A model generated the notes under the pieces. That model worked only from the letters and a program-made list of their open reading frames with translations, was not told the origin of the DNA and did no database searches. Of a DNA stretch of 64,000 bases, positions 24,787 through 47,802 are shown piece after piece. A program made the translations under genes and the position numbers. The DNA lies in contig DATNEW010000009.1 of NCBI GenBank assembly GCA_035606695.1, positions 1-64,000 of the forward strand, given 5' to 3'. Position 1 is the first letter of the stretch, and every line of letters starts with the position of its first letter. The stretch comes from Gemmatimonadaceae bacterium. Its GTDB lineage: Bacteria; Gemmatimonadota; Gemmatimonadetes; Gemmatimonadales; Gemmatimonadaceae.

Positions 24787-25931
24787 TTCGACTCTCCGAG
24801 AATTCCTGGATTGAGCACTGTGTTCGGATCGAACGTCGCCTTGATGCGGCGCGACAACGGGGCGTTTGCCACCGAAGGTCCGCACGCATCCCACAACGCG
24901 GCCGGCAATCGTTCGCCGATGCGCGTCTGCGTTCGCGGCTCGGCGAACATCCGTGCGAGCGCCGCAACGTTGGCGTCGCTGCGCGGGACGATGCAGCGCA
25001 CCACGCCGAGCGCCGGCCGGGCATGAATGAGTGTGTCGGAACAATCAGCGGCTACACGCATTGCCGCGTTCCAGCATTCTCCGAGCTTCGACGGAAGCTG
25101 CGACAGGCGAAACACGATTGCATCGTCAGGTTCGGCTGTACGCAGGCGAAACCACAGCGCTGAATCGAGCTCCTCGAGGTGGCCGAGCTCCTGCAGCGCC
25201 GCGCGCTGCGCGCGAACCGATTCCCTGTTGCCGCCCAGCCGAAAGATCGCCACCGGCGATGCGTGATTGGCCACGACGCGAGCCGCGGCCGTATTCAGTA
25301 TTTCGCATGCGAATGGTTTGAAGGGCATTCGCCGCAGGAATTGCCGCACGCGGCTCGCATCGTCGTCGCCGCCGGACATGCTCACGCCGAGGGTCACGTC
25401 GGCCTCTGGCCGCGCGTGCAGACGTATTGAGACTTCACTAATGATGCCGAGCGTGCCCCACGAGCCCGTGAGCAGTCGTGTGAGATCGAAGCCGGCGACG
25501 TTCTTGACGACACGGCCACCGCCGCGCGCGACCATTCCGCCGCCCGTGGCGAATTCAACGCCGAGCACGAGGTCGCGCGGAAGTCCGAATCCCGTTGACA
25601 GCGGGCCCGACGATGCGGTCGCGATTGTGGCGCCGATGGTGCCGTCATCAGTCCCGTGCGGGTCAAGCGCGAGCCACTGGTTGTGCGGCGCGGTGGCTGC
25701 GTTGATTTCAGAGAACGTCGTCCCGGCGCGGGCCGTGAGCGTGAGATCGCCCGGCACATAGTCGACGATCCCGCTGTGATCGCGAGTTGAAATCGTCTCG
25801 GCCGCGCGCACCGGACGGCCCGCGTTCAACCAGGTTCCCCGGCCGACGATGCGCAACGCCGCGCCCCGCGCCGCCGAGTCGCGTATGCGATCGGCGAACA
25901 TGCGCGCGGACCGCGCGGCGCTCGTCGTCAT
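24783..25931 (-). CDS. glcE: Glycolate oxidase FAD-binding subunit
   Basis: A 382-residue FAD-binding (PCMH-type) subunit, a shortened relative of GlcD. Recognisable phrases are LRIVGRGTWLNAGRP, DLTLTARAGTTFSEI, TIGATIATASSGP and VVKNVAGFDLTRLLTGSWGTLGI, the last close to a family signature. It pairs with GlcD to form the flavin module oxidising glycolate to glyoxylate. The ATG at 25931 overlaps the glcD stop (ATGA), and the stop overlaps the TTG of glcF, so all three subunits are translationally coupled and likely made in equal amounts. Confidence 0.92.
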   Translation of the reverse strand: MTTSAARSARMFADRIRDSAARGAALRIVGRGTWLNAGRPVRAAETISTRDHSGIVDYVPGDLTLTARAGTTFSEINAATAPHNQWLALDPHGTDDGTIGATIATASSGPLSTGFGLPRDLVLGVEFATGGGMVARGGGRVVKNVAGFDLTRLLTGSWGTLGIISEVSIRLHARPEADVTLGVSMSGGDDDASRVRQFLRRMPFKPFACEILNTAAARVVANHASPVAIFRLGGNRESVRAQRAALQELGHLEELDSALWFRLRTAEPDDAIVFRLSQLPSKLGECWNAAMRVAADCSDTLIHARPALGVVRCIVPRSDANVAALARMFAEPRTQTRIGERLPAALWDACGPSVANAPLSRRIKATFDPNTVLNPGILGESN

Positions 25932-27382
25932 CCGCGTCGCGCCGACGGTACGCCGTGCCATTCTCGACAGGAGTGAATCGGCACGACCTTGCCCGGATTC
26001 GCGCGCCGATCTGGATCGAACACATCGCGCAACGAGCACATCGTGGCGAGCGAATCTTCGGAGAAGATCAGCTGCATGTACGGAAGCTTGTCCAGGCCGA
26101 CTCCGTGCTCGCCGGTGATCGTACCGCCTTCGTCGACGCACGCGCGCATGATCTCGCCCATCGCCAGGTGCACGCGCTTCGTTTCGTCGGCGTCGCTCGC
26201 ATCGTAGGCAATGTTCGGATGCAAATTTCCGTCGCCCGCGTGAAACACGTTGCACACTTTCACGCGATGCCGCTCGGCGATCTCGTGAATGCGCGCCAGC
26301 ACCGCCGGAAGGCGTGTGCGCGGCACGACCGCGTCCTGCACCACGAGGTGCGACGACACGCGGCCCATGGCGCCGAACGCTTTCTTGCGTCCCTGCCAGA
26401 GTCGCGTGCGTTCGGCGTCGTCGCGCGCGACGCGAACGGTCCGCGCGCCATGTTCCGTGCACAGCGCCTCGATGGTTTCGACGTCATGTTCGATGCCGGC
26501 GGTCGCGCCGTCCACTTCGATGAGGAGCGCTGCCGCGGCATCCGTCGGATATCCGGCGGCATAGATCGACGACTCGACCGCGCGAATCGTCGCCTGGTCG
26601 ATCATCTCGAGCGCGGCCGGAATGATACCCGTCGCGACGATCGCCGATACGGCCTGCGCCGCCGAGTCGATCGACATGAAATCGGCGAGCAGCGTACGCA
26701 CCGCTTCGGGGTTGCGCGACAAGCGTACCGTAATGTCGAGCGCAATGCCGAAGCAGCCTTCAGAGCCGACGAACGCGCCGACGAGATCGTAGCCCTCGTT
26801 CTCGCCTTGCGCGTTGCCGAGCGTTACGATCTCGCCGTCGGGGAGCACGACCGTGAGTGCAACGACGTGATTCGTCGTCACACCGTACTTGAGACAGTGG
26901 GGACCACCGGCATTCTCGGCGACGTTCCCGCCGATCGTGCACGCAGCCTGACTCGATGGATCGGGCGCGTAGTGCAGACCGAGCGGTGCAACCGCGCGAC
27001 TGAGCGCGGCGTTGATCACGCCCGGCTCGACCACCGCGAGCGCGTTCTCCGCGTCGACGGACACGATGCGCGTCAAGCGATTGAGGCCGATCAGCACGAC
27101 GCCGTCGGCGAGCGCGCCGCCCGAGAGTCCGGTGCCCGCGCCGCGCGGCACGAACGGCACGCCGCGCTCGGCGAGCGCACGCACCACCGCGACGAGCTCG
27201 TCGCGCGTGCCCGGAAACACCGCGAGCCCCGGCTGCTTGAAGTACGACGGAAGACCGTCCGACGTGTACGTCAGCAATTCGCTTGGCCGGAACAACACGC
27301 GGCGTTCGCCGACGATGCCGGCAAGACGCGATGCGAGCGATTGATCGATTGCCGGTGCGAGTGGAGCGGCGACGGAGGTCAC
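25928..27382 (-). CDS. glcD: Glycolate oxidase catalytic FAD subunit
   Basis: A 484-residue flavoprotein. The FAD pyrophosphate motif PRGAGTGLSGGAL and ACTIGGNVAENAGGPH are typical; the C-terminal FAD-oxidase domain has NVFHAGDGNLHPNI and TITGEHGVGLDK, strongly matching GlcD. It oxidises glycolate (or D-lactate in close relatives) at the inner face of the membrane together with GlcE and GlcF. GTG at 27382 is assumed, without a clear ribosome site, 31 nt after a lipid-kinase-like gene in the same direction. No malate synthase or glyoxylate carboligase is in the window, so the fate of glyoxylate is not shown. Confidence 0.93.
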   Translation of the reverse strand: MTSVAAPLAPAIDQSLASRLAGIVGERRVLFRPSELLTYTSDGLPSYFKQPGLAVFPGTRDELVAVVRALAERGVPFVPRGAGTGLSGGALADGVVLIGLNRLTRIVSVDAENALAVVEPGVINAALSRAVAPLGLHYAPDPSSQAACTIGGNVAENAGGPHCLKYGVTTNHVVALTVVLPDGEIVTLGNAQGENEGYDLVGAFVGSEGCFGIALDITVRLSRNPEAVRTLLADFMSIDSAAQAVSAIVATGIIPAALEMIDQATIRAVESSIYAAGYPTDAAAALLIEVDGATAGIEHDVETIEALCTEHGARTVRVARDDAERTRLWQGRKKAFGAMGRVSSHLVVQDAVVPRTRLPAVLARIHEIAERHRVKVCNVFHAGDGNLHPNIAYDASDADETKRVHLAMGEIMRACVDEGGTITGEHGVGLDKLPYMQLIFSEDSLATMCSLRDVFDPDRRANPGKVVPIHSCREWHGVPSARRG

Positions 27383-27413: not shown

Positions 27414-28307
27414 TCACTCATGAAAGCGCTCGGCGTCTCGCGCCGCATGCTTCGCGTCGACCACGACGCGGAGATGCCCAGGCACGTGCCGATACGACAG
27501 CGGTGGCTTCACCGTCACGATCTCGCCATCGACTGCTATCCTCGGCACACGGGGCTGAATTCGGCATTCGTCGACGATGAACGCGTCGAGCGCCGGCGTC
27601 TTCGCGACGGCATGCACGCCTCTAGTCGCCGCGGAGAGCCCCAGTGCGAGTGCGCGGCCGCCGGATCGACTGCGCACGACCATGACGTGAAGCCCGGTGC
27701 GCCCACCTTCGACTCGTGCACCGAGCGTGGGAAGCTTGAGCTCGCGTTCGCCGACGCCGATGAACACCAGCGGCGTGATGTACTCGCGTTCCTTTCCCTC
27801 CACGTGCAACGTCACGCGAAAAGTCGGCATTCGGATCAAGAGGCGGATGCCGGCGAACACGGAGGAGAGGTGATACCCCAACCGATGCTCGAGCCGTTCG
27901 CGCGCTCGAACGAATGACACGTACGCGCCCACCGAGCTCGTGTTGAGAAAGATCCGGTCGTTCACCACCGCCGCGTCGACCGGGATCGCGGTGCCACGCA
28001 TCCCGACGCGCGCGGCCTCCTCGAGCTCGAGCGGAAGACCAAGGTCCTTGGCGAGATGATTCAACGTCCCGCACGGCAGGATACACAATTCCGTGCCCGT
28101 GCCGGCGATGACGTTGGCCGCGCTGCCGATCGATCCATCGCCGCCGGCGACCAGAATGCGACGCTCGCCGCTCTCGATCGCGGTGCGAACGTGAGCGGCG
28201 AGCGATGCCGGCTCGACTTCCCGGATGTCGTATCCGCCCGCGCCGCGCAGCGCCGAGCGCGCCGCGTCCGCATTGCCGGACAGAGGATTGATGAATGCCG
28301 GAATCAC
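27414..28307 (-). CDS. Diacylglycerol-kinase-like lipid kinase (YegS/LCB5 group), copy 1
   Basis: A 297-residue protein of the DAGK catalytic family. MIPAFINPLSGNADAA is the usual N-terminal strand-loop, VAGGDGSIGSAAN contains the GGDGS nucleotide loop, and LPCGTLNHLAKDLGLP matches the family's GTxNxxA motif. The C-terminal half has the predicted lid/lipid-binding beta sandwich (PRIAVDGEIV). It should phosphorylate a lipid at the membrane surface; diacylglycerol, phosphatidylglycerol or sphingoid bases are possible. The GTG start lies 4 nt after the stop of a hybrid histidine kinase. A second such gene, also beside a hybrid histidine kinase, is at 46897-47802. Confidence 0.87.
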   Translation of the reverse strand: MIPAFINPLSGNADAARSALRGAGGYDIREVEPASLAAHVRTAIESGERRILVAGGDGSIGSAANVIAGTGTELCILPCGTLNHLAKDLGLPLELEEAARVGMRGTAIPVDAAVVNDRIFLNTSSVGAYVSFVRARERLEHRLGYHLSSVFAGIRLLIRMPTFRVTLHVEGKEREYITPLVFIGVGERELKLPTLGARVEGGRTGLHVMVVRSRSGGRALALGLSAATRGVHAVAKTPALDAFIVDECRIQPRVPRIAVDGEIVTVKPPLSYRHVPGHLRVVVDAKHAARDAERFHE

Positions 28308-28311
28308 GTGC

Positions 28312-31300
28312 TCAAGCCGTCGCCATCTCCCTCATGCGTGCCACCACCGCTTCCAGCGCGCGAAGCTCGAATGGCTTCTGCATCACCGTGCAGCGCGTGC
28401 GCGCCACGAATTCGGCGGCGTCCTTCGACGCGACGTCGCCCGTTGAGAATATGATGCGATCGAGCAATTCCGGAGCCATCGTCGCGACGTGGTCGTGCAG
28501 CTCGACCCCGGAGCAGCCAGGCATCTTCAAGTCGGAGATCACCACGGCGAAATCGTTCTTGCCGGCGAGCATCAAGGACAACCCCTCGGCGCCGTCCTCC
28601 GCTTCGGAGACATTCCAGCCGCGCCGCGTGAAGAAGCGCCGCAACGCCGCGCGAATCGGTGCTTCGTCGTCGATGATGAGCACCCGCGGCTTGACGGCCG
28701 GCTCGCCCGCCACGACCGGTGTACCAGCGGATGGCGTGGCGATGTGTCGCGGCGTCACGCGCGGTGCTTCAGTGACGCCGCCTTCAATGGGCAGCGTCAC
28801 GGTGAATCGCGCGCCCGGACCGTCGCCGCCGCCGCGATTTTCGACCCCGATCTTTCCGCCCAGTTGCTGCACCACGCCAAGCGTGACCGACAGTCCCAGG
28901 CCGGTGCCCTGACCGAGCGGCTTCGTCGTGAAGAACGGCTCGAAGATTCGGTCCATGAGCTTCGGCGGAATGCCCGGGCCGGAGTCCTCGACAACGAGCA
29001 CGAGGTTTTGGTCCTCGATGCGCGCGACCAGGTGCACCAAGCCACCGCGCCCCGACGCTTGCGCGGCGTTCACGACGAGATTGGTGACGATCTGCTGCAG
29101 ACCGGCGCGATCGGTGTTGCCGAACGTCTCGGGCGGCGTGAGCTCGACGACGAGACGAGCGCCAATTTCTTCGACCATTGGCTGCAGCGCCTTGACGCTG
29201 TTGGTCAGCGCTTCGGTGATCTGCACGCGCTCGCGCGACGCGTCGCGGAAGCGTACGAACGACAGCAAGTCGCGCACGATCGCGCGCGAGCGCCGTGCCT
29301 GATCGCGAATCACGGAGATCGCTTCGTGATCCGTCGCGCTGCGCTCATCGTCGAGCAGATCCTCGGCGAAGTGGAGAATGGCGGCGAGCGGATTGTTCAA
29401 CTCGTGCGCCACGCCGGACACGAGCTGGCCCAACGCCGCAAGCTTCTCCGACTGGCGCAGCGCCAATTCGGCCGCGCGCAGCGGCGTGACGTTTTCCACG
29501 AAGCCTTCCGAGAACCACACGGCGCCGCGCTCGTCGCGATACGCGCGCGCGCTGATGCGGACCGTGACGGTGGTGCCGTCCTTCTTGCGCCATTCCATCT
29601 CGGCGCTGCGCAACTCGCCGTGCGCTTGCAGCTGTTTGAGCAGACGGTCGCGATCGGCCGGCGAGACGAACAACTCGTGGGCCATGTCCACCTGCAGCAG
29701 CTCGAGCGCCGAGTTGTAGCCGAGCAGCTGCACGAGCGATGCGTTGACCGCGAGCAAGCGTCCGGTGCCCGTCGCGCGATAGATGCCGATCGGCGAATTC
29801 TCGACGAATGAGCGGAAGCTCGCCTCTGATTGTCTGAGCGATTCAGCCGCATGCGCGCGATCGACCGCGATGCCCGCCAGCTGCGTCGCGGCCGCGGTGA
29901 CGCGAAGCTCCTGCGGCCGCGGCTGCCGCGTCTCGCGAACGTACACGACCAGCGCGCCAAGAATGCGGCCCTGCGGCGAGCGAATCGGCACACCCCAGCA
30001 CGCGTGATAGCCCTGCTCGAGCGCCAGCGCGCGATAGTCGTTCCAGAGCCGATCCGTCGTGACGTCGGGCGTGATCACGAGCTCGCGGCGGTAGACGGCG
30101 GCCCCACACGTCGATGCCGTCGGCCCGACGACGATTTCGTCCATGGCGTCGACGAACTCGGGGCGCATCGACGGCGCGCACCGCGTCCGGAGCGTCAATC
30201 CGTCGTCGTCGATGAGATGCACCATCACTTCGACGCCGGGCGTCTGCGTCTCATGGAAGCGCACGATCGTCGCCAGGACGTCGCGCAGATCTACACCTGT
30301 GGCGATCGATTCAAGCACGCGCCGCTGCCACTCCGAGCTGTCTTCCGCACGCTTCCATTCGGTGATGTCGCGGATGACGATCGTGAGATGCGGCCGTCCG
30401 TCCATGTTCGTGCGCGAGATGCTCACGTCGATGGGGAAGAGCGTGCCGCCCAGGCGACGTCCGGAGATGTAGCGGTCGGCGTTGAACAACCGTGGCTGCT
30501 CGCCTTCGATCAGCGTCTGATCGAGCGCGCGCCGCAGCTCGTCGCGATTCACGTCCGCGATCAGCTCGAGCACCGACCGTTGATGCGCCTCGCTCGTGGT
30601 ATATCCGAACATCGATTCGGCCGCGCTGTTCGCGACCGCGATCTCGTAGCGATCGTCCACGATGATGATCGCGTCCATCGCCGTGTTGACGATCGCGGCG
30701 AAGCCCGCTTCCGTTTGCGCGCGGTCGACCAGCGCCCGCAGCTGCGCCGAGCGATAGTAGGCGTAAAACGCGAGCCCGGCCACGCCGAGAAAGCCGAGCA
30801 GCAGGAGGCTTTCCGAGCGCAGGCGATCGGACACCGGCGCGTACACGTCGTTCGTGCGCCACGCCGCGTACACGCCCCAGGGCAGTCGTGTCGAGCGTCG
30901 CGTGGCGACGATCATGTCGGCGCCGTCTGGCGCGCCGTAGTGCCCCACGAAGCTCGGGACGTTCACGGCGAGTCGCGCCAGACTGTCGGCGTCGATGATG
31001 CACAGGCGCAGCGGTGACTGCTGGCAGCGCCGAATGCCGATGATCTGGTTGTCCGCGCGGACGACGATCGCCGTGAACGGCAGGCCCGGCGCCGGCGGCG
31101 TTCCGGCGTTGAACGACCGATTCAGGTCGGCCCTCATCACGAGCGCCGCCGTGCCGTGCGTCGTTCCGCCCGCGCTCGACATCACCGGCGTCGCGATCGC
31201 GGTCGTGACCAGGCTGTCCTGCTGCTCGAAGCGGCTGACGGTGGTCGTGCCGGAGGCTATTGCTTGCGCGGCCGACATTCGTTCCGCGCCGGTCATCTCG

Positions 31301-31683
31301 CGACCGCCGACCGAGCCGAGGACAGTTCCGTGTCCGTCGATCATCCAGATCGCCTGATAGGCGCCGCGGCGCTGGAGGGACTGCATCTGCGCGTGCAGCA
31401 CGCGCTGCGCGAGCGCGGGCGCGATGTTCAGCGAATCACTGGCGTGGATCGTCGCGACTTCGGCGAGCGCGCGCGAGTCGGCCTCGTGGTCGCGATACCA
31501 CATGTCGATGCCGGCCACTGAGCCTTGAACGCGCCCGGTGAGCAGCCGCTGAGCGGAGTCGAGCGCCGATTGGCGAAGGCCGTGCGCGTGGAGCGCCAGC
31601 AGTCCGACTAGCGCGACGCCGGCAAGCGTCGCGAGGGACACCGCTACGGCGCGGCGCCGCCTGGTTTTCTCGCGTGGGGACAC
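28312..31683 (-). CDS. Membrane-bound hybrid sensor histidine kinase with PAS, GAF and receiver domains
   Basis: An 1123-residue hybrid kinase. A first membrane helix (about 11-33) and a second (about 291-310) bracket an extracytoplasmic, Cache-like sensor. The cytoplasmic part has a PAS domain (AIVNTAMDAIIIVDD), a GAF domain (about 450-620), another PAS (SFRSFVENSPIGIYR), a HisKA domain with the phospho-acceptor in VAHELNNPLAAI (about 760), a HATPase domain (EDSGPGIPP, GTGLGLSVT) and a C-terminal receiver (VLIIDDEAPIR, phospho-Asp in ISDLKMPG at about 1049). There is no DNA-binding output, so a phosphotransfer partner elsewhere is expected. GTG at 31683 is assumed. A lipid kinase gene follows after 4 nt. 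Confidence 0.9.
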   Translation of the reverse strand: MSPREKTRRRRAVAVSLATLAGVALVGLLALHAHGLRQSALDSAQRLLTGRVQGSVAGIDMWYRDHEADSRALAEVATIHASDSLNIAPALAQRVLHAQMQSLQRRGAYQAIWMIDGHGTVLGSVGGREMTGAERMSAAQAIASGTTTVSRFEQQDSLVTTAIATPVMSSAGGTTHGTAALVMRADLNRSFNAGTPPAPGLPFTAIVVRADNQIIGIRRCQQSPLRLCIIDADSLARLAVNVPSFVGHYGAPDGADMIVATRRSTRLPWGVYAAWRTNDVYAPVSDRLRSESLLLLGFLGVAGLAFYAYYRSAQLRALVDRAQTEAGFAAIVNTAMDAIIIVDDRYEIAVANSAAESMFGYTTSEAHQRSVLELIADVNRDELRRALDQTLIEGEQPRLFNADRYISGRRLGGTLFPIDVSISRTNMDGRPHLTIVIRDITEWKRAEDSSEWQRRVLESIATGVDLRDVLATIVRFHETQTPGVEVMVHLIDDDGLTLRTRCAPSMRPEFVDAMDEIVVGPTASTCGAAVYRRELVITPDVTTDRLWNDYRALALEQGYHACWGVPIRSPQGRILGALVVYVRETRQPRPQELRVTAAATQLAGIAVDRAHAAESLRQSEASFRSFVENSPIGIYRATGTGRLLAVNASLVQLLGYNSALELLQVDMAHELFVSPADRDRLLKQLQAHGELRSAEMEWRKKDGTTVTVRISARAYRDERGAVWFSEGFVENVTPLRAAELALRQSEKLAALGQLVSGVAHELNNPLAAILHFAEDLLDDERSATDHEAISVIRDQARRSRAIVRDLLSFVRFRDASRERVQITEALTNSVKALQPMVEEIGARLVVELTPPETFGNTDRAGLQQIVTNLVVNAAQASGRGGLVHLVARIEDQNLVLVVEDSGPGIPPKLMDRIFEPFFTTKPLGQGTGLGLSVTLGVVQQLGGKIGVENRGGGDGPGARFTVTLPIEGGVTEAPRVTPRHIATPSAGTPVVAGEPAVKPRVLIIDDEAPIRAALRRFFTRRGWNVSEAEDGAEGLSLMLAGKNDFAVVISDLKMPGCSGVELHDHVATMAPELLDRIIFSTGDVASKDAAEFVARTRCTVMQKPFELRALEAVVARMREMATA

Positions 31684-31827: not shown

Positions 31828-32721
31828 TCAGGCCGCCCAGAATCCGCAGAGGGCCTTGCCGTCCGGCGACTCGCGCAGCTTCTCGAACGCCCGCTCGCGA
31901 ATCTGACGAATCCGCTCGCGCGTCACACCCATGAGTGCGCCAATCTTCTCGAGCGTCATCGCCTCGGAGCCTTCCTCGAGCCCGTAGTACAGATAGAGGA
32001 TTTTGCGCTCGCGCGGGGTGAGATACTTCTTGAATACACGATCGATAAACTCGCGCATCAACTTGTAGTCGGTTACTTCCTCGATCTCGGTGCCATCCAC
32101 GCCGGCGAAACGTTCGCCGAGTGTCGAGGCTTCGCGATCCGACCGGTCGATGGGCGCGTCGAGGGACACCTCGGTGGCCGACATCTGCTTCGCCGCCCGC
32201 ACGTTCTCGGGCGTATCCTCGAGGAGACGGCTGACCTCGTCTTCCGTCGGGTCGCGCTTCAACACCTGCGCGAGAATCGTCTCGGCACGCGCCAGACGAA
32301 TGAGTTGCGAATTCTGATTGAGCGGAATGCGCACCGAGCGCGTCTGCTCGGCCAAGGCCTTGAGCACGGCCTGGCGGACCCACCACACGGCGTAGGAGAT
32401 GAACTTCACGCCCTGGTCGGGATCGAATTTGCGGACGGCCTTGAGCAGGCCTTCGTTGCCAATGGCGACGAGCTCGCTCAGATCGAGGCCGTGACCCTGG
32501 TACTTCTTCACGTACGAAATGACGAATCGCAGGTTGGCGGTCACCAGGCGTTCCGCCGCTTTCTCGTCACCCTTCTGCGCGCGTCTGGCCAGACGTCGCT
32601 CTTCTTCGGGATCCTGAATGAGAGGGAGCTTTTGGATGTCTTGCAGGTACTGATCGAACGCGGTAGACGGAGACGATCGGAAATATCCCTTCGACGATCT
32701 GGTCTCGGTCACTTGCTCCAT
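31828..32721 (-). CDS. RpoD/SigA-family RNA polymerase sigma factor lacking region 1.1
   Basis: A 297-residue sigma-70 family protein. Region 1.2 (AFDQYLQDIQKLPLI) opens it; region 2 has ANLRFVISYVKKYQGHGLD and FISYAVWWVRQAV (core binding and -10 recognition); region 3 and region 4.2 (MTLEKIGALMGVTRERIRQI) complete it. No region 1.1 or large non-conserved insert is present, so it resembles a primary-like or group 2 factor rather than classical RpoD; either role is possible. AAGGAG lies 6 nt before the ATG at 32721; longer readings are not supported. It has its own strong promoter (32815-32843) and terminator (31772-31803). Confidence 0.93.
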   Translation of the reverse strand: MEQVTETRSSKGYFRSSPSTAFDQYLQDIQKLPLIQDPEEERRLARRAQKGDEKAAERLVTANLRFVISYVKKYQGHGLDLSELVAIGNEGLLKAVRKFDPDQGVKFISYAVWWVRQAVLKALAEQTRSVRIPLNQNSQLIRLARAETILAQVLKRDPTEDEVSRLLEDTPENVRAAKQMSATEVSLDAPIDRSDREASTLGERFAGVDGTEIEEVTDYKLMREFIDRVFKKYLTPRERKILYLYYGLEEGSEAMTLEKIGALMGVTRERIRQIRERAFEKLRESPDGKALCGFWAA

Positions 32722-32814
32722 ACACGCTCCTTCCCGATTGACGCCGGTTAGTTGGGGAGCGTGCGTCCGCTCACCCTCGATGTAGCGTGGACCCAAGCTA
32801 GAGGCAGGGACGGC

Positions 32815-32843
32815 AGGATAATGTTGGCTCCAAAATCGGTCAA
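32815..32843 (-). promoter_or_regulatory. Sigma-70 type promoter of the sigma-factor gene
   Basis: Read on the minus strand, TTGACC (32843-32838) and TATCCT (32820-32815) are separated by exactly 17 nt. This is one of the best consensus matches in the window. Transcription would start near 32808, giving a leader of about 85 nt. Confidence 0.7.
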
Positions 32844-32941
32844 CAGACATTTCCAGCCGTGTCGCTTCGCGGCGCGTCGAAATGATTCTATGTCGTTGAA
32901 TTCACAGTGAGTTGCAGGTTACTAATTGGATAAAATGAGCA

Positions 32942-38095: not shown

Positions 38096-39678
38096 TTCTT
38101 CGTTCCAGTTCCGTGATCGATCGTCACGTCGAGCCAGCGTTGTCCATTGAAGATGACCGGCGGCTGGAAGTGCTTGATCCACGGCTGCACGGCGTACAGC
38201 TCGTCGTAGAAATAGAGGAAGACCATCGGCGCCTCGGCGAACGCGATCGAGTCGGCCTGGGTGTACAACGCGTTGCGCTTGTTCTGGTCCAGCTCGCGGC
38301 GCGACGCGGTGACGACCGAATCGAAGCGGGCGTTCGCGAAGAACGACACGTTGCCGCCCGCGCCCCGGTTCGCACTGTGCAGCAGCGGATACAGAAAATC
38401 TTCGGCGTCCGGATAGTCGGCGTACCAATCCTTGAGGATCATGTCGGCGTCGCCTTTGCGTGCCGCAGCGCGCGCGGCCGCTGACTCACGCAGCACGATC
38501 TTGGTGCGAATGCCGACCGCGTTCAAATACGCCTGCACCGTTTCCGCGATGCGCTGATAGGTCGGCACCATGTTGGTCCAGAGCTCGACGTCGATGCCGT
38601 TCGGGTGGCCCGCCGCGGCGAGCAGTGCCTTGGCCTTCTGCGGATCGTACGGATAGGGTTTGCGCGACTTGTCGTATCCGCCGAGCGAGGGTGGAATCAC
38701 ACCGGCGGCGCGGGTGCCGCGTCCGCCGACGAGGCGTTCGATGATGCGATCGACGTCGATGGCGTAATTGATCGCCTGCCGCACACGAGGATCGGCGAGC
38801 GGGCCGCGCGTGGTGTTGATGCCGATGTACACGAGCTCGAGCGCGGCGATCGACATGAGCTGCGGCTTCTTGCTTTCGTCCTCGACCCAGTCGCCTGCTT
38901 CCGCCGCCGGAATCTCGAGGATGTCCACGTTGCCGCTCTCGTACTCGGCCACGGCGGTACTCGGTTCAGCGATGATGCGCGCGCGCAGCGTGTCGGTCTT
39001 CGGCGCGCCGCCGAAATAGTTCGGATTGCGCGCGAACAACAGATAGTCGTCGTGCTTCCACTCGACGAGCTTCCACGGCCCGGTCCCGATCGGATGTTGG
39101 CCGAAATCGGTTCCGGTCTTTTCAGGCACGACCGCGGCGACGGGCATCGCGAGCATGGTCGCGAAAATGGCGAGTGGCTCGGAGAGCGTGACGACGAGCG
39201 TCGAGTCGTCCCTCACCGCCAGGCCGGCGACGCTCTTCGCGGTGCCGCCGTTGTATTCCTTCGCGCCCTTGATGGGGAAGAGAAACGACGCGGCGCCGCT
39301 CTTGGTCTCGGGCGCCAGCGCGCGTTCCCAGCTCGCGGCAACGGTGTGCGCCGTGACCGGCGAGCCGTCGTGGAATGTGACGCCGCGGCGTAGATGGAAG
39401 GTGTACTGCAAGCCGTCGGGGCTCACGTCCCACCGTTCGGCGAGGGCGGGCTGCACCTTTCCGTCGGCGGTGAACTGTGTCAGACCGTCGAAGAGGTAGG
39501 CGACAGCGCGACCCGTCGGCACGTCGGTGGAGACCGCCGGGTCGAGGGATTTGGGATCGTAGTTGTCGCGGGAGTCGATCAGCTCGTGGCGCGAAGGTGC
39601 CCCGGACGAACCGCATCCCGCCGGCATCAACCACAACCCAGCAACCACCAAAGCGAGTAGCGGCCGTCTATCTTTCAT
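38092..39678 (-). CDS. Peptide ABC transporter substrate-binding lipoprotein
   Basis: A 528-residue periplasmic binding protein of the SBP_bac_5 family. The signal ends LMPAGC with lipid-anchor Cys22. Family phrases are SLDPAVSTDVPTGRAVAYL, LAERWDVSPDGLQYTFHLR with RGVTFHDGSPVTAHT, and PIGTGPWKLVEW. It presents oligopeptides or similar solutes to the permease encoded immediately downstream (ATGA overlap). The start at 39678 gives a standard lipoprotein signal with AGGG nearby. The substrate is not determined by sequence. Confidence 0.93.
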   Translation of the reverse strand: MKDRRPLLALVVAGLWLMPAGCGSSGAPSRHELIDSRDNYDPKSLDPAVSTDVPTGRAVAYLFDGLTQFTADGKVQPALAERWDVSPDGLQYTFHLRRGVTFHDGSPVTAHTVAASWERALAPETKSGAASFLFPIKGAKEYNGGTAKSVAGLAVRDDSTLVVTLSEPLAIFATMLAMPVAAVVPEKTGTDFGQHPIGTGPWKLVEWKHDDYLLFARNPNYFGGAPKTDTLRARIIAEPSTAVAEYESGNVDILEIPAAEAGDWVEDESKKPQLMSIAALELVYIGINTTRGPLADPRVRQAINYAIDVDRIIERLVGGRGTRAAGVIPPSLGGYDKSRKPYPYDPQKAKALLAAAGHPNGIDVELWTNMVPTYQRIAETVQAYLNAVGIRTKIVLRESAAARAAARKGDADMILKDWYADYPDAEDFLYPLLHSANRGAGGNVSFFANARFDSVVTASRRELDQNKRNALYTQADSIAFAEAPMVFLYFYDELYAVQPWIKHFQPPVIFNGQRWLDVTIDHGTGTKK

Positions 39679-39743
39679 TGACCCTGGAAATGGCGTCGGC
39701 GCGAGAACTTACCCGAGCCCGCCGATACGCGTCAAATCACAGC

Positions 39744-39986
39744 ATGCCTGCAAAGACCGATCCGCGACAGACATCGGCGGCCCCGACCTATTTCTATCGT
39801 CGCGCACTCGACGCGCGCGATCTCTTGCCCGCGATCGGTGTCGGTGTGGCGATGGGCCTGGCCGCATTCTATTTGACGAAGCTGTATCTCGAGCGCGCGC
39901 CGCTCACGCCCGAAGGGTTGGAACCGCGGCGGCGCAGCAAGCGTGCAAAGCACGCGATGCACCTTCGCCGAGCGCGCGCGACGTGA
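39744..39986 (+). CDS. 80-residue single-helix membrane protein
   Basis: A small protein, MPAKTDPRQTSAAPTYFYRR at its start, with one membrane helix (DLLPAIGVGVAMGLAAFYLTKL) and a basic C-terminal tail (RRRSKRAKHAMHLRRARAT), so the C-terminus should be cytoplasmic. The stop overlaps the GTG of the TamA/BamA-like gene (GTGA), which argues that it is translated and belongs to that operon. No family is recognised and the start lacks a clear ribosome site. Confidence 0.6.
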   Translation: MPAKTDPRQTSAAPTYFYRRALDARDLLPAIGVGVAMGLAAFYLTKLYLERAPLTPEGLEPRRRSKRAKHAMHLRRARAT

Positions 39987-42340
39987 GAGGCGCCGGGCAC
40001 CGCGTCGGCCGTGGCGCCCTGAGCTCCGTTCGGATCGCGCTTGCCGTCGTCGCGCTGACCGCTGCCCGCGCATCGATCGCGCGCGCGCAGGACGTGCTCT
40101 GCGAATCGACGAACACCGAAGTGCACGCGCTGCGCTTCGAGGGCAATACCACGTTCAGCGATGCGCAGCTCTCGTCGTACGTCATCACGACGCCGTCGTC
40201 GCTCACGCGACGCACGCTGGCGAAGATCGGCATCTCGCACGGCGGCGCGCGGCGGTGCTATCCGGACGTCGGGCTCAAGCCGGACGTCGATAGTCTCACG
40301 CTGTTGTATCGGCTGAATGGCTTCTACGACACCCGCGTCGACACCGTCGTCACGCCCGCCGGCCGCAACGCGGTGGACATCACGTTTCGCATTCAGGAAG
40401 GACAGCCGCTCATTCTCGATACGTTGTCCATCACGGGGTTGGACAGCGTGGCAAACGCGGACGAGTTGTTGCGGAAGCTGCCGCTGCAAGTCGGGCGCCG
40501 CGTCGGACCGCAGCAGCTGTCCGAAGCATTCGAATTGCTCATCACGTCGTTGCGGAACATGGGCTATCCGCACGCGGACGCACTGCGACAATTCGACACG
40601 CACAAGGCCGAGCATCGCGCCGAGGTCGGATTGGCGGTGACGACGGGGCCGCTCTCGCACTTCGGCACGATCGCGGTGCACCGGCAGGGGCCGCCGGGTC
40701 ACGAAAGCTCGCCGTCGATCGACAGCGCGGTGGTCCTCAAGCTGATCGGCTTCAAGTCCGGCGACGTCTACAGCGACACCGCGTTGGTCGGCGCCTCGCG
40801 CAATCTCTACAACCTCGGCACCTACCGGCATGTCGGCATTCTCGTGGACAGCACGTGGCCGGGGGGCCAGTCGGTCGCCGTGGTCTCGATGGATCTGCGC
40901 GAAGACCTGATGAATCAGATCGATCAGGACGAGGGATTCGGCACGCTCGACTGCTTCCGCACCAATACACAATACACATATAAAAACTTTAATGGCGACG
41001 CGGCGCAGGCCACACTCACCGCGCGCTTCTCGAAGCTCGGGTACGGTGATCCGCTGAGCACCGAGTTCCTGAAGAAGCATCTCTGCGGCTACCTGAACGC
41101 GGATTCGCTCGGCAGCTCGAAGGTGAACGACTACATCGGCGGCACGATTCAGTACCCGACGCTGCTCGGCACGAAGTGGCGGCCGGCGTTCTCCGCGTAC
41201 ACCGAACGTCGCGGCCAGTATCGATCCTACCTGCGCACGACCGACGTGGGCTTCAGTCCCTCGGCAACGCGGATGGTGCGACCGTTCATACCGCTCACGC
41301 TCGCCTACACGTTCGAACACGGAAAGGTGAACGCCGACAATGCCGTGCTGTGCGGCGTCTTCAATCGATGCACCCCCGAAGAACGCGAGGACGTGCAGAA
41401 GCGGCAGGCCTTCGGTGTCGCGAGCATATCGCTGCAATCCAACCGCACCGACAATCTTCTCTCGCCGACGACCGGATATGCCTGGGCGGGGGAATTCCGC
41501 ACCTCCAGTCCGCTGACTGCGTCCGACCCTTCGCTCACGTTCAACAAGGTGACCGGCGACGTCTCGGCGTTTCATCCATTCAACTCGAGAACGGTCTTCG
41601 CGGCGCGATTGCGCGGCGGGTACATCGCGGGCGGAACGACGGCGAGCGGGACTACGCTGCCGCCACCGCAGGAGCGGCTCTACGGCGGCGGCTACAACTC
41701 CGTGCGCGGGTTCGGCCAGAATGAGCTTGGTCCGCAGGTGTATCTGCTCGACCCCGATGCATTCTCGGATGACACCATCGCGTTCAACCCTGATGGCAGC
41801 ACGACCGAAAAGCTCGTGTCCAACGGCAAGCGGCCTCAGCGCGCGGTGCCGAGCGGAGGTAATGTGCTGCTCGTCGCGAATGCGGAGGTGCGTGTTCGCG
41901 GGGGCATTTTGCCGAGTGCCGTCGAGATCGCGCCATTCGTGGACGCGGGTCAGGTGTGGGTGACACAGACGGGAAAGCGCATCAACGTCGACCAGCTGCG
42001 GGTGACGCCGGGCATCAGCTTCCGCTACTTCCTGGCGTTTGCGCCCATCCAGGTGAACCTGGGGTACAACCCGTATCCGCCGGTCACAGGCATTGCGTAC
42101 TTCGCGCAGCCGGTGAGCGGCAAGGCGAACCTGGCGCCGCTCATCTGTGTGACGTCGCCCGGCGATACCCCCGTCACTTTCATTCGTCAGCCGATCACGG
42201 GCGCGATCACACAGGAAGGTCTCGCATCGTGCCCCAGCAGCTACCAACCGCCTGCCGCGTCAAACTTCATCCAGCGACTCGGGCTCGGCCACTTTGGCCA
42301 GCACATCGTGTTCACGATCAATATCGGTAGTGAATTCTAG
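39983..42340 (+). CDS. Outer-membrane TamA/BamA-like protein (POTRA plus beta-barrel)
   Basis: A 785-residue Omp85-superfamily protein. A signal peptide ending ARAQ precedes POTRA domains (LRFEGNTTFSDAQLSSYV at about residue 46, LSITGLDSVANADELL later). The barrel starts about residue 430 and contains the VRGF lid-lock motif (YNSVRGFGQNEL near 577). The protein ends in Phe (INIGSEF), the usual assembly signal. It should insert or export beta-barrel proteins or cell-surface substrates. The GTG start overlaps the preceding small gene; TamB starts 4 nt after its stop, so TamA is the better label, though BamA cannot be excluded. Confidence 0.87.
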   Translation: MRGAGHRVGRGALSSVRIALAVVALTAARASIARAQDVLCESTNTEVHALRFEGNTTFSDAQLSSYVITTPSSLTRRTLAKIGISHGGARRCYPDVGLKPDVDSLTLLYRLNGFYDTRVDTVVTPAGRNAVDITFRIQEGQPLILDTLSITGLDSVANADELLRKLPLQVGRRVGPQQLSEAFELLITSLRNMGYPHADALRQFDTHKAEHRAEVGLAVTTGPLSHFGTIAVHRQGPPGHESSPSIDSAVVLKLIGFKSGDVYSDTALVGASRNLYNLGTYRHVGILVDSTWPGGQSVAVVSMDLREDLMNQIDQDEGFGTLDCFRTNTQYTYKNFNGDAAQATLTARFSKLGYGDPLSTEFLKKHLCGYLNADSLGSSKVNDYIGGTIQYPTLLGTKWRPAFSAYTERRGQYRSYLRTTDVGFSPSATRMVRPFIPLTLAYTFEHGKVNADNAVLCGVFNRCTPEEREDVQKRQAFGVASISLQSNRTDNLLSPTTGYAWAGEFRTSSPLTASDPSLTFNKVTGDVSAFHPFNSRTVFAARLRGGYIAGGTTASGTTLPPPQERLYGGGYNSVRGFGQNELGPQVYLLDPDAFSDDTIAFNPDGSTTEKLVSNGKRPQRAVPSGGNVLLVANAEVRVRGGILPSAVEIAPFVDAGQVWVTQTGKRINVDQLRVTPGISFRYFLAFAPIQVNLGYNPYPPVTGIAYFAQPVSGKANLAPLICVTSPGDTPVTFIRQPITGAITQEGLASCPSSYQPPAASNFIQRLGLGHFGQHIVFTINIGSEF

Positions 42341-42343
42341 GGA

Positions 42344-45300
42344 ATGACCCGCCGCCGCCTCGTGGCGCTCGTCAGCGCCGCCGTGCTGTTCGCGATCGGG
42401 CTCGTGGCGTTCGCCACGGGCCTTTTCGTGACGCGCACGCAAGTGGGCCGCGACCGGCTTCGCGAGTGGATCACGCCGCTCGTCACCAATGCCGTCAAGG
42501 GCGGTAAGGTCTACATCGGGCATTTGAGCGGCAGCCTGATCAACGGCGTCACGATCGACAGCATCGAGATTCGCGACAAGCGCGGCGAGATCTTCGTGGC
42601 CACTGGCCCGGTGACCGTCCAGTACAACTGGCGCGACATCGTGGACAACCGCGTTCTGCTCCACCGCGTGGACGTGGCGCATCCGTTCGTGCACATCATC
42701 CAGCACGCGAACGGCAGCTGGAACTTCAAGGAGATTTTCCCCTCGTCGAACGGGCCGAAAGTCCCAAAGCCGGCGAGCGAGCGAAATTGGGGCGACTATG
42801 TCGTGTTCGATTCGGTGACGCCCAGGAACGCGACCTTCCTGTTGTCGATGCCGTGGGAGCCGGATCCCGACCTCAAGGGCGCGGTACGCGACAGCGTGAT
42901 TCGCTACCATCTCGCCACGCCCGACAAAGCCGTGTCGCGCGTCTTCGACGGATTCGCGCGCACGTACGCGTGGCACCAGGGCAACGGCATGTTGTCGCAC
43001 ATTCGACTGGCCGATCCGGACAGCGACAAGAAGTTCGGACAGGAGTTCAAGATCGCGTCGCTGTCGGTGGATGAATTCTCGCCGACATTCAAGTTTCGGA
43101 ATTTGCGCGGCACGGCGCGCCACCTCGGCGATACGGTGTTCGTGGACGTGCCGCACTTCGACATGCCGAAATCGACTGGCCACGGCGCGGGCCGAGTGTG
43201 GTGGGGAAGCGACCTTCCGGTTCGCTACGACATGCTGATTCACGGCGACTCGGTATCGCTCGACGACGTGAACTGGGTGTATCCGGACCTGCCGCACAAC
43301 GGCGGCGGCACGCTCGATCTCGCGATCAGGAACGAGTCGTATACCGATCGCGACAAGATGCGATTGGTCGATTTCCAGTTGAAGAAGATGGACGTGCGCA
43401 GCACGAAGTCGCATCTCATCGGCGACATGTGGTTCGGCACCGGTGCGCCGGTGCTGCTCGTGCGCAACGTCGACCTGCGCGCCGATCCGGTGGATTTCAC
43501 GCTGCTGGATACGCTGGCGGGCAAGCCGTTTCCGGAGGATTGGCAGGGACTGCTCACCGGAACGGTGAAGGCACGCGGCGGTCCGCTGACGCATTTCTAC
43601 GTCGATGACGCGCGCGTCACCTTCCAGGATGCCCACGTGCGCGGTGCAGTCACGCGCGCGACGGCGAAGGGCGAGCTCGACATTCTGCAGCCGGCATTCA
43701 CCGTGTTTCACGGGTTCAATGTCGATGCATCGCAGCTCGATCTGCGGACGATCGAGTATCTCTTTCCCGCGTTCCCGAAGTTGGGCGGCGTCGTGTCCGG
43801 CACGGCGACGCTCGACTCGTCGTGGCTCGACGTGCGGTTTTCCAACGCGAACCTGTATCATCGCGACGGTCCCGGCGATCCGACGCACGCTACCGGCAGC
43901 GGCCGCGTGACGTACGGCACGAAGTACATGACGTACGACATGTCGCTCGACATGCAGCCGCTCAACCTGTCGATGGTCGGCAAGTCGTTGTTCCCGACGA
44001 TGCCGGCGCTCGGTCTCGTCAGCGGTCCGCTGCGCGTGCAGGGACAATCACCCGATCTCGCGCTGGCATTCTCGTGGCAAGGATCGGCGGGTGCGTTGAG
44101 CTTCGACGGCCGCGTCGACATGGATTCGGTCGGCGGCTATGGCGCGCGTGGTCGCGGGCAATTCAGCGGTGTGAATTTCTCGCAGCTGCTCGCGTCGGCT
44201 GGTGCTTCGTTGCGGCGGGGCACATTGAGCGGCCACTACGACATCGACGTCGCCGGTGAATCCGCCGCCGCGCTCAACGGCATGGCCGACGTGTCCGTGG
44301 AGCGGACGACGTTCGAGGGTGTGCGCGTCTATCCCACGCGCGCGCAATTGCGGTTCGCCGACGGCCGGCTCCGGCTTGCCGATACACTGCGTCTGCGCAC
44401 CGATGCGGCGACGCTGGTCGCGACCGGCGGCATTGGCCTTCCGCGCGGCCGCCCGGACACGGTGCGTTTCTCCGTCGACGTCGACTCGCTCGGCGGTCTT
44501 CGGCCGATTCTCTCTCCGCTCGATACCACGCTTCTTGGCGCCGCGGCTACAGTTCCGGATTCGATGTCGGGCGCCGGCACCGCGACCGGAACGCTGACAG
44601 GCACGCTCGATTCGCTCGATCTCAATGCGCGCGTTGTGGCGAGCGATCTGTATTGGAATCAGAATCGCGGGCAGCGACTGGCGGCGGACGTCATCGTGCA
44701 TGACATCCTGCATCGGAGAATCGGATCAGGCAGCGCGCGCGTCGACAGCGTGACCTTGTTCGGTGTCGCGCTCGATACGATCGGCGGACGGCTGGTGCTC
44801 ACCGATTCGATGCACGCTCGCTTCAGTCTTGGCGCCTTGAGTCGCACCGGACCGACCGCGGTCGCATCGGGCCTGTGGTCGCGCGGCGCGGGGGTGCAGA
44901 CATTCCGCTTCGACACGGCGGCGCTCAACGTCGCGCCGAGCGTGTGGCGGCTCGCCGCGCCGGCAACCGTGTCACGGGATACGGCCGGCGGATGGCGCGT
45001 CGACTCATTGCTGCTGCGCAATCAGGACAGTGGCTTCGTCGCGCTCGCCGCGAACGTACCGGATTCCGGCGCCGCGATGGCTCGTCTCCGCGCGCAGGGC
45101 ATTCCGCTGCGCGACGTTCGCACGCTCGCGCAAATCAAGGATTCGTTGTCCGGCGTGCTTGGTTTTTCGGTGGATGCCGCGGGCACGAAACTGCGGCCGC
45201 AAATCAACGCCGATGTACATCTGGCATCGGTTCGCTGGGCGGGCGTTGGATTGGACAGCGTCAACGCGCATGCCAATTACCAGAATGAACGTGCGTCGAT

Positions 45301-46909
45301 GACGGCCTCGATCGTGCGCGACGGCAAGCCAACCGCGAGCGCGAGCGCGAACGTTCCGGCGGACATCACGCTGCTCGGATTCAAGCGCCGCAGTGACTCT
45401 CTTCAGGTGAGCGTTCAGGCCGAGCCGACCGACTTGTCGATTCTGCGTCCGCTCGTCGGCGACAAGCTGGTGTTGAGTGGGCAAGTCGCCGGCGGCGTGC
45501 AAGTCACGGGAACGACGCTCGCGCCGATTTATAACGGCAGCGTGAACTTCAAGAACGCGTCGGCCAAGATCCCGTCGCTCGGCATCACGCTGCGCGACAT
45601 CAACGGCTCGCTGACCGGCGGCGTGAATGCGGCGAATCAGGACAGCGTGAACGTCCGCATGTGGGCGCGCACGGAGGGGCGGCAGGACAGCGTGAGTCTC
45701 ACCGGTTGGGCCAGCGGGCTCGATCCGTCGAAGCATCGAACGGCGTTCCATCTCGCGCTGGTCGCCGACTCGCTGCACGCGTTCAACAAGCGCACCGTCG
45801 CCGACCTCACGATCTCGACGCGCGACGACCGCGGCCGGCTCGACTCGCTGGTGCTGAGCGGCTCGATCAACGCGTCGGTGTTGAGCGGTCCGCTGACGAT
45901 CGATCGCGGCTCGTTCTTCCTCGTGGACAAGGATCTCGCGAACAAGCGCGGCGTATCCGGAGCGTTCGACTTCGTCACCGACACCGCCGCCACCGCGATC
46001 ACCCTTGGCAGCTCGGCGTTCATCAATGAATTGATGAACAACCTTCAAATAGAAGGCGTGCCGATCAGCCTGGGCCGGGATGTGCGGCTGCGCTCGGCCG
46101 ATGCAAACGTGCTGCTCGGCGGCGACCTCACGCTCGTGAAATCGAATTCGATCGGTGCGAAAGGCCTGCAGCTTCAGGGCACGCTCGCCACGATTGGCGG
46201 CACGTACAATCTGAATTACGAAGGGCTGGTGCAGCGCGAATTCCAGGTGTTGTCGGACGGCACCGTGACGTTCGAGGGCCCGCCAACGACGCCGCGTCTG
46301 AACGTGCGCGCGCAGTACAACGTGCCGCAGGCGCGCGACCGCGCACTCGGAGTCATCGTGACGTTGAGCGGGCTCATGCCGAACCCGACACTGTCGTTCT
46401 CGAGCACGGCCGATTATCCGATCTCTCAGAACGATCTGATCAGCTATCTCTTCACCGGGCGGCCCGGTTTCGACATCGGAAGCCAGCGGTCGGACCTGGC
46501 TGCGCTCATTTCACCGACCGTGAGCGCCGTCGCATCGGAGCAGCTTCGCCGCGCGTTCGGCTCGTTCTTCAGCACCTTCCAATTCCAGCTCGGCGGTGCC
46601 GGGAGTGACGTGAACGGCAACACCAATTTCTTTGCGCCGAACAATCTGGGGAATTACCTGAACTCGTCGACCGTCGAGTTGGGGCGGCAGTTGACGAACA
46701 ACGTGTACGTGAGCGGCACGCTGAACTTCTGTCAATTCAGCGCCGGCAACAACTTCGGCGCGCGGCTGGAGTATCGCTTCGATCCCAAGTTGGCGCTGCA
46801 GCTGTCGTACGATCCACCGCCGGTGACGTCGACCTGCGGCAAGGTGCTGAGCATCATTCCGCAACCCAACCAGGCCGGCTTCTCGTTCCTGCACACGTGG
46901 CGCTTCTGA
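42344..46909 (+). CDS. TamB-like translocation and assembly module protein (DUF490)
   Basis: A 1521-residue protein with an N-terminal membrane anchor (LVALVSAAVLFAIGLVAFATGLF), a very long beta-rich periplasmic region and a C-terminal DUF490 domain ending TWRF. Recognisable C-terminal phrases are IGAKGLQLQGTLATIGGTYN, VQREFQVLSDGTVTFEG and LISYLFTGRPGFD. It would span the periplasm as a lipid- or protein-guiding groove between the inner membrane and the TamA-like barrel encoded just upstream (4-nt gap). The length is typical of TamB in diderm bacteria. The stop overlaps the lipid-kinase start by 13 nt. Confidence 0.9.
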   Translation: MTRRRLVALVSAAVLFAIGLVAFATGLFVTRTQVGRDRLREWITPLVTNAVKGGKVYIGHLSGSLINGVTIDSIEIRDKRGEIFVATGPVTVQYNWRDIVDNRVLLHRVDVAHPFVHIIQHANGSWNFKEIFPSSNGPKVPKPASERNWGDYVVFDSVTPRNATFLLSMPWEPDPDLKGAVRDSVIRYHLATPDKAVSRVFDGFARTYAWHQGNGMLSHIRLADPDSDKKFGQEFKIASLSVDEFSPTFKFRNLRGTARHLGDTVFVDVPHFDMPKSTGHGAGRVWWGSDLPVRYDMLIHGDSVSLDDVNWVYPDLPHNGGGTLDLAIRNESYTDRDKMRLVDFQLKKMDVRSTKSHLIGDMWFGTGAPVLLVRNVDLRADPVDFTLLDTLAGKPFPEDWQGLLTGTVKARGGPLTHFYVDDARVTFQDAHVRGAVTRATAKGELDILQPAFTVFHGFNVDASQLDLRTIEYLFPAFPKLGGVVSGTATLDSSWLDVRFSNANLYHRDGPGDPTHATGSGRVTYGTKYMTYDMSLDMQPLNLSMVGKSLFPTMPALGLVSGPLRVQGQSPDLALAFSWQGSAGALSFDGRVDMDSVGGYGARGRGQFSGVNFSQLLASAGASLRRGTLSGHYDIDVAGESAAALNGMADVSVERTTFEGVRVYPTRAQLRFADGRLRLADTLRLRTDAATLVATGGIGLPRGRPDTVRFSVDVDSLGGLRPILSPLDTTLLGAAATVPDSMSGAGTATGTLTGTLDSLDLNARVVASDLYWNQNRGQRLAADVIVHDILHRRIGSGSARVDSVTLFGVALDTIGGRLVLTDSMHARFSLGALSRTGPTAVASGLWSRGAGVQTFRFDTAALNVAPSVWRLAAPATVSRDTAGGWRVDSLLLRNQDSGFVALAANVPDSGAAMARLRAQGIPLRDVRTLAQIKDSLSGVLGFSVDAAGTKLRPQINADVHLASVRWAGVGLDSVNAHANYQNERASMTASIVRDGKPTASASANVPADITLLGFKRRSDSLQVSVQAEPTDLSILRPLVGDKLVLSGQVAGGVQVTGTTLAPIYNGSVNFKNASAKIPSLGITLRDINGSLTGGVNAANQDSVNVRMWARTEGRQDSVSLTGWASGLDPSKHRTAFHLALVADSLHAFNKRTVADLTISTRDDRGRLDSLVLSGSINASVLSGPLTIDRGSFFLVDKDLANKRGVSGAFDFVTDTAATAITLGSSAFINELMNNLQIEGVPISLGRDVRLRSADANVLLGGDLTLVKSNSIGAKGLQLQGTLATIGGTYNLNYEGLVQREFQVLSDGTVTFEGPPTTPRLNVRAQYNVPQARDRALGVIVTLSGLMPNPTLSFSSTADYPISQNDLISYLFTGRPGFDIGSQRSDLAALISPTVSAVASEQLRRAFGSFFSTFQFQLGGAGSDVNGNTNFFAPNNLGNYLNSSTVELGRQLTNNVYVSGTLNFCQFSAGNNFGARLEYRFDPKLALQLSYDPPPVTSTCGKVLSIIPQPNQAGFSFLHTWRF

Positions 46910-47802
46910 TCAAACGCGCCGTCATCATCGCCAACCCGGCATCGCGCAAAGGGAAACGGCTCGCCGAGCGTGCACGACGATCGCTGGCGGGCCGTTCGGT
47001 CGAGTGCGATCTCGTGTTTACCGCGGCGCCGGGCCATGCGGCGGAGCTCGCCGCGCTGCACGCGCCGCATTATGACGCTGTCTTCGCGCTGGGCGGCGAC
47101 GGGACGGTCATGGAGATCGCAAGCGCGCTTTCGGGGTCGCAAGCGCGCGTCGGAGTGCTCGCGGGTGGAACAGGGAACCTCCTGGCGAGAGCGCTGGGGA
47201 TACCGCTCTCGGTACGCCGCGCCGTGGATGCCTTGCTCGACGGCGAGGAGCTGTTGATCGACCTGGGGCGCTTCGACAACGGCCGGCGGTTCGCCATCGC
47301 GGCCGGGGTTGGCATCGATGCCGCGATGGTGGCTGAAACGCCCGGCTGGCTCAAGCGTCGATTGGGTGTGCTCGCGTACACGATCATGGGCTCCCGGGCA
47401 GCAGTTCGGGCGGTCCTGCGTCGAGACTTCTTCCAGGCGCGAGTCACGATCGATGGCGTGGTGCACGAGCGGCGCGCGGCGGCGGTGATGATCGCCAACT
47501 TCGGCGCGGTGCTCGGCGACCGCATTACCCTTGGCCCCGAGATTCGGACGGATGACGGATTGCTCGACGGCTGCATCTTCGCGCCGAACACCCTGCGTGA
47601 TGCCTTGCGCATCATGCGGCGGATGTTGCGGCGTGATTTCAGCTCCGATCCGTGCATGCTGTACGCGCGCGGCCGGACGATTCGCGTCGAGACCGATCCG
47701 CCACTCGCTTGGCAAGCGGACGGCGAGCTGATGGGAACCACGCCGTTCAATGTCGAGGTCGAACCGCTCGCGGTGCGCCTCCTGGTCCCGCGAAGGAGCT
47801 GA
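46897..47802 (+). CDS. Diacylglycerol-kinase-like lipid kinase (YegS/LCB5 group), copy 2
   Basis: A 301-residue protein of the same family as the gene at 27414-28307. AVIIANPASRKGKRLAERA, FALGGDGTVMEIASAL and AGGTGNLLARALGIPLSVR are the expected catalytic and lipid-side motifs; DGELMGTTP marks the C-terminal sandwich. GTG at 46897 overlaps the tamB stop by 13 nt; no ATG fits better. The stop lies 5 nt before the GTG of a soluble hybrid histidine kinase, so the two are probably co-translated. Lipid substrate unknown. Confidence 0.88.
   Translation: MALLIKRAVIIANPASRKGKRLAERARRSLAGRSVECDLVFTAAPGHAAELAALHAPHYDAVFALGGDGTVMEIASALSGSQARVGVLAGGTGNLLARALGIPLSVRRAVDALLDGEELLIDLGRFDNGRRFAIAAGVGIDAAMVAETPGWLKRRLGVLAYTIMGSRAAVRAVLRRDFFQARVTIDGVVHERRAAAVMIANFGAVLGDRITLGPEIRTDDGLLDGCIFAPNTLRDALRIMRRMLRRDFSSDPCMLYARGRTIRVETDPPLAWQADGELMGTTPFNVEVEPLAVRLLVPRRS

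Follow-up and report, generated by a model that had tools for sequence, protein, structure and literature searches.

TamB of Escherichia coli is reported to be an intermembrane phospholipid transporter (PMC8593681, PMC8912898, PMC11226057). The delivery of phospholipids to the outer membrane, and the way in which it is kept in balance with lipid synthesis, are open questions, and a lipid kinase gene whose operon also contains tamB across much of a bacterial class is a candidate for a testable link between synthesis and transport outside Proteobacteria. Such a gene is found in a 64,000-nt stretch of DNA from a Gemmatimonadaceae bacterium (contig DATNEW010000009.1; hereafter the window), which was compared with related loci (L), genomes (G) and families (f) of its class. 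The reading that we favour, with a probability of roughly 0.6, is a TamA-TamB-DAGK operon whose lipid kinase would act in TamAB-linked lipid homeostasis, together with a regulatory module formed by a histidine kinase (HK2) and an NtrC-like protein.

Two kinase pairs and the TamA-TamB genes

The window carries two lipid kinase genes, each next to a histidine kinase gene (Table 1), and all four lie exactly where the preliminary description had placed them, with gaps of 4 nt between DAGK1 and HK1 and 5 nt between DAGK2 and HK2. Both HK1 and HK2 combine PAS, GAF, HisKA, HATPase_c and a C-terminal Response_reg domain in a single protein and are thus hybrid histidine kinases; Pfam also bears out that each ends in a receiver without an output domain. 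The HK2 start at 47808 is favoured because the DAGK2-HK2 gap is 1-4 nt in four close relatives; an alternative upstream GTG at 47652 would give a longer HK2, and gene starts are approximate throughout the loci. By domain search, the window genome has 3 DAGK_cat genes and 88 HATPase_c matches, and the chance of a histidine kinase neighbour on either side is estimated at ~3% per gene (taking ~5,400 genes from the genome length). Histidine kinases beside two of three DAGK genes are unlikely to reflect chance, as far as this can be said of a pattern noticed after the fact. The comparison with relatives carries more weight.

Table 1. Genes of the two kinase pairs and their neighbours in the window
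Feature	Positions	Strand	Description	Basis
GlcD-like FAD-linked oxidase	25928..27382	-	conserved downstream neighbour of DAGK1	Pfam, synteny
DAGK1	27414..28307	-	divergent lipid-kinase paralogue	PF00781, DgkB-like fold
HK1	28312..31683	-	hybrid histidine kinase: PAS, GAF, PAS, HisKA, HATPase_c, receiver	Pfam
Sigma-70 family factor	31828..32850	-	conserved gene upstream of the HK1/DAGK1 locus	Pfam, synteny
TamA-like protein	39563..42340	+	Omp85 outer-membrane protein (POTRA + Omp85)	PF01103 1e-30, PF07244 5e-15
TamB-family protein	42344..46909	+	AsmA-like, 1521 aa; predicted intermembrane lipid/OMP module	PF04357
DAGK2	46897..47802	+	DgkB/YegS-type lipid kinase	PF00781 + PF19279, TIGR00147, fold, motifs
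HK2	47808..50627	+	hybrid histidine kinase: GAF, PAS x2, HisKA, HATPase_c, receiver	Pfam

Pair 2 forms the tail of a tight operon-like array, in which a TamA-like Omp85 gene is followed by TamB, DAGK2 and HK2, and the TamB reading frame overlaps DAGK2 by 13 nt. The first gene encodes POTRA and Omp85 domains and lies beside tamB; its product falls below the NCBIfam equivalog cut-off for TamA (52 vs 625) and the cut-off for BamA (148 vs 297), so that 'TamA-like' is a positional name. Its true start is probably later than annotated, relatives being mostly 705-891 aa long. The TamB protein has the PF04357 C-terminal domain, which a full-length Pfam scan missed and a scan of the last 469 aa detected (121.5 bits; 124.7 bits in the genome profile search), and it scores 73.9 against the NCBIfam TamB equivalog cut-off of 825 (ATportTamB). 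The window genome encodes a second TamB-family protein (G000:C50:103258-104352, L268), on whose contig no DAGK_cat gene was found. In several Gemmatimonadaceae the TamAB locus has another signalling gene, which encodes a receiver-GGDEF protein (L083:1578-2498) and immediately precedes the TamA-like gene.

Linkage of TamB and DAGK2 across the class

DAGK2-type genes were collected from 132 distinct loci, 129 of them with at least 600 nt of upstream sequence. TamB precedes DAGK2 in 104 of these 129, with an M48 protease gene intervening in 17. These counts rest on tblastn; the loci share ancestry and do not record independent events, and they come from a set biased to Gemmatimonadaceae that says little about other phyla. 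The Omp85/POTRA gene is kept upstream of TamB in relatives. The TamB stop is within 40 nt of the nearest DAGK2 start in 63/80 loci, where the choice of the nearest start biases toward short gaps, and the 13 nt overlap is common.

Hand comparison of coordinates in 61 class genomes, all of which have TamB by profile search, places TamB and DAGK2 next to each other in 41, two genomes with broken contigs or matches being supplied by loci (L109 for G026, L114/L220 for G043). By family, the two are neighbours in f1 (7/10), f2 (9/9), f4 (14/14), f5 (2/2), f6 (5/5) and f10 (4/4), the M48 gene standing between TamB and the kinase in f5, f6, f10 and part of f4. The adjacency was not found in f7 (0/14), f8 (0/2) or f9 (0/1), that is, in 0/17 genomes together, and three f1 genomes (G016, G033 and G039) have TamB with DAGK2 elsewhere or with no close DAGK2; the linkage is thus not obligatory. 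Judged by gene order, the lasting class-wide partner of DAGK2 is TamA/TamB, and pure chance placement of pair 2 is ruled out by its conservation across relatives. Some genera have a DAGK2 homologue of 52-55% identity away from TamAB (several of L081, L086 and L159-L172), which in L162 and L172 adjoins genes that, by eye, resemble those of lysine/threonine biosynthesis.

HK2 and the NtrC-type regulator

Downstream neighbours were recorded in 60 TamB-linked loci that lack M48 and extend at least 6.5 kb downstream. Both a histidine kinase and an NtrC-type regulator follow DAGK2 in 26, the regulator only in 24, the histidine kinase only in 4 and neither in 6, which gives the regulator in 50/60 and the histidine kinase in 30/60. 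The four loci with the kinase only are the window, L142, L143 and L144; L145, with shorter downstream sequence, likewise lacks the regulator. The histidine kinases downstream of DAGK2 form one tree group, and HK2, conserved only within Gemmatimonadaceae among the loci examined, usually lies between DAGK2 and the NtrC-type response regulator.

The best match in the window genome to the L080 regulator is 36-40% identical, compared with 46-70% among locus regulators, and an ortholog of the locus regulator seems to be absent from the window genome. This absence, shared with L142-L145, accounts for the missing output of HK2, which only seems to have none; a relay ending on a lipid is not the explanation.

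None of 61 locus regulators (from loci within L080-L221) displays the canonical GAFTGA loop of sigma-54 activators by motif pattern, which makes sigma-54 activation doubtful and suggests that these regulators may be sigma-54-independent. RpoN occurs in 40/41 class genomes, including that of the window, where three other NtrC-type proteins read GSFTGA, GAFSGA and GAFTGS. Among the locus regulators, GAFTDA is frequent in those from f2 and f3, and most of those from f1 no longer have the motif.

It could be argued that HK2 and the NtrC-type protein are unrelated passengers and that only the TamAB-DAGK link is functional, given that HK2 is patchy (half of the 60 loci), was not found outside Gemmatimonadaceae in the loci examined, and is retained in the window genome and the loci of four close relatives where the regulator is missing. 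We consider this rather unlikely, because HK2 orthologs hold their position across Gemmatimonadaceae as a single tree group, the NtrC-type protein comes after DAGK2 or HK2 in most of the sampled loci, order-level relatives included, and the gaps between DAGK2 and HK2 are short. Under the favoured reading, with HK2 and the regulator as a module of the operon, HK2 is, from its distribution, a Gemmatimonadaceae-level addition between DAGK2 and an order-level partner, the NtrC-type regulator.

Family and substrate of the lipid kinases

DAGK2 matches PF00781 (86.5 bits; DAGK_cat 1.4e-24) and PF19279 (YegS_C, 90.8 bits), and exceeds the curated TIGR00147 (YegS/BmrU) cut-off (127.5 vs 118.65 bits), which places it in the YegS/DgkB/BmrU family. 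It carries the motifs GGDGT, GTGN, DDGLLD and DGE, and in structure comparison its fold resembles DgkB 2qv7 and 4wrr. By profile and fold, it is a DgkB/YegS-type lipid kinase, and probably a diacylglycerol kinase. Given that a DgkA-type kinase (PF01219) was found in only 2/61 class genomes, DAGK2 may be the main diacylglycerol kinase.

The substrates of bacterial members of the DAGK fold family are diverse, and sphingosine kinase and acylglycerol kinase belong to the same family, so DAGK2 could instead act on a sphingoid base or ceramide, undecaprenol or monoacylglycerol, with TamAB handling a phosphorylated specialty lipid. This is improbable, since the top profile and fold matches of DAGK2 are of the DgkB/BmrU type and, with DgkA nearly absent, a diacylglycerol kinase would have to come from somewhere.

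DAGK1 is more divergent. It matches PF00781 (67.5 bits; DAGK_cat 1.1e-18) without a YegS_C match and stays below the TIGR00147 cut-off (70.1 vs 118.65 bits), outside the YegS/DgkB/BmrU family as so defined; despite this, its fold matches DgkB. In the alignment, EGGRTGLHV stands where DAGK2 has DDGLLD, a segment missing throughout the DAGK1 family, which retains GGDGS/T, GTLNH and DGE. DAGK1 might be a kinase whose metal binding is altered or whose function has changed.

Pair 1 and the question of a lipid phosphorelay

DAGK1 orthologs, found at 24 loci, are flanked by genes for the sigma factor and GlcD. HK1 lies directly beside DAGK1 in 3/24 (window, L252, L254); in 6/24 HK1 is present with a protein of ~1,190 aa in between (L069, L255, L258, L259, L263, L265), in 5/24 this protein occurs alone (L256, L257, L260, L262, L264), in 3/24 a receiver-only protein is found (L071, L266, L267), and in 7/24 there is nothing between (L064-L068, L253, L261). 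Full-length HK1 is thus missing from 15/24. The ~1,190 aa protein (for example, L259:5276-8869 and L264:4911-8507), which in many relatives separates DAGK1 from the sigma factor or from HK1 and which the window locus lacks, matches polysaccharide deacetylase and a PgaC/NodC-type glycosyltransferase and is a predicted polysaccharide-synthesis gene product; its N-terminal third looks GH18-like by eye only. By this layout, pair 1 is a locus of its own in which HK1 and DAGK1 are loosely linked.

The two pairs are not copies of each other. DAGK1 and DAGK2 are 28% identical over 126 aa, and the kinases of the HK1 and HK2 loci split across one tree branch with moderate support (90/81), in a tree whose 14 'other' rows are partly second matches on the same HK2 genes and not independent outgroups. 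Recent duplication of an HK-DAGK cassette is ruled out on both grounds, and by these comparisons pairs 1 and 2 have independent histories. The preliminary description had taken the double co-occurrence as a sign of a functional link, with lipid phosphorylation as input or output of a phosphorelay; tempting as the repeated adjacency within one window is, pairs that arose separately are no evidence for such a circuit. The enrichment of the adjacency expected in relatives holds for pair 2, where a histidine kinase follows DAGK2 in half of the sampled loci, but the arrangement behind it differs from the proposed one, TamA/TamB being the deep partner. HK1 abuts DAGK1 in three loci only. A direct coupling, in which the receiver, for instance, binds and regulates the lipid kinase, can draw on the two tight pairs, on HK2 adjoining DAGK2 in 30 loci and on the short receiver-only protein adjoining DAGK1, which gives the impression of a retained receiver, but it is very improbable, because order- and class-level relatives that retain TamAB-DAGK have no histidine kinase beside DAGK2, the usual downstream neighbour of HK2 is the NtrC-type regulator, and HK1 is lost or apart from DAGK1 in most loci.

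Proposed role of the operon

In the favoured TamA-TamB-DAGK operon, DAGK2, predicted to be cytosolic, would most likely work on the inner face of the inner membrane, phosphorylating diacylglycerol or another neutral lipid like it, and its product would return to phosphatidic acid and phospholipid synthesis. TamB and its Omp85 partner would provide a route for lipids, and possibly also for OMPs, to the outer membrane. Given the family of DAGK2 and the reported transport of phospholipids by TamB, the operon suggests that lipid recycling by DAGK2 may be coupled to lipid export by TamAB; a role of TamA/TamB in OMP assembly here is equally possible. HK2 and the NtrC-like regulator, appended in Gemmatimonadaceae, would plausibly adjust expression of the operon or another envelope response, and in the window lineage the regulator gene is missing from the locus and HK2 remains. 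A wider version is tentative, and we lean against it: in Gemmatimonadota, recycling of inner-membrane lipids might be coupled to lipid export via a DgkB-type kinase dedicated to this task, whose translation is coupled to that of TamB and which takes the place of DgkA, and in Gemmatimonadaceae be placed under a two-component module with an NtrC-like regulator apparently devoid of the sigma-54 contact loop.

Comparison with known systems

The locus regulator (L080) shares the receiver, AAA+ and Fis-type HTH domains of NtrC-family response regulators, from which the locus regulators differ in lacking a canonical GAFTGA loop; the window locus has none. DAGK2 agrees with the soluble lipid kinases DgkB, BmrU and YegS (PDB 2qv7, 4wrr, 2bon) in fold, motifs and the TIGR00147 cut-off passed, and differs from them in being genomically coupled to TamAB. 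To our knowledge, no DgkB or YegS has been known in a TamAB operon, and at the level of abstracts, no relevant paper came up in text searches of the literature that paired TamB with diacylglycerol kinase or with Gemmatimonadota. As in the tamA-tamB operon of E. coli, which encodes the TAM complex with the AsmA-like TamB, an Omp85 gene is followed tightly by that of a TamB-family protein with a PF04357 C-terminal domain. In contrast to E. coli, where the third gene is presumably ytfP, the third gene here encodes a DgkB/YegS-type lipid kinase, followed by a histidine kinase and then, in relatives, by an NtrC-like regulator.
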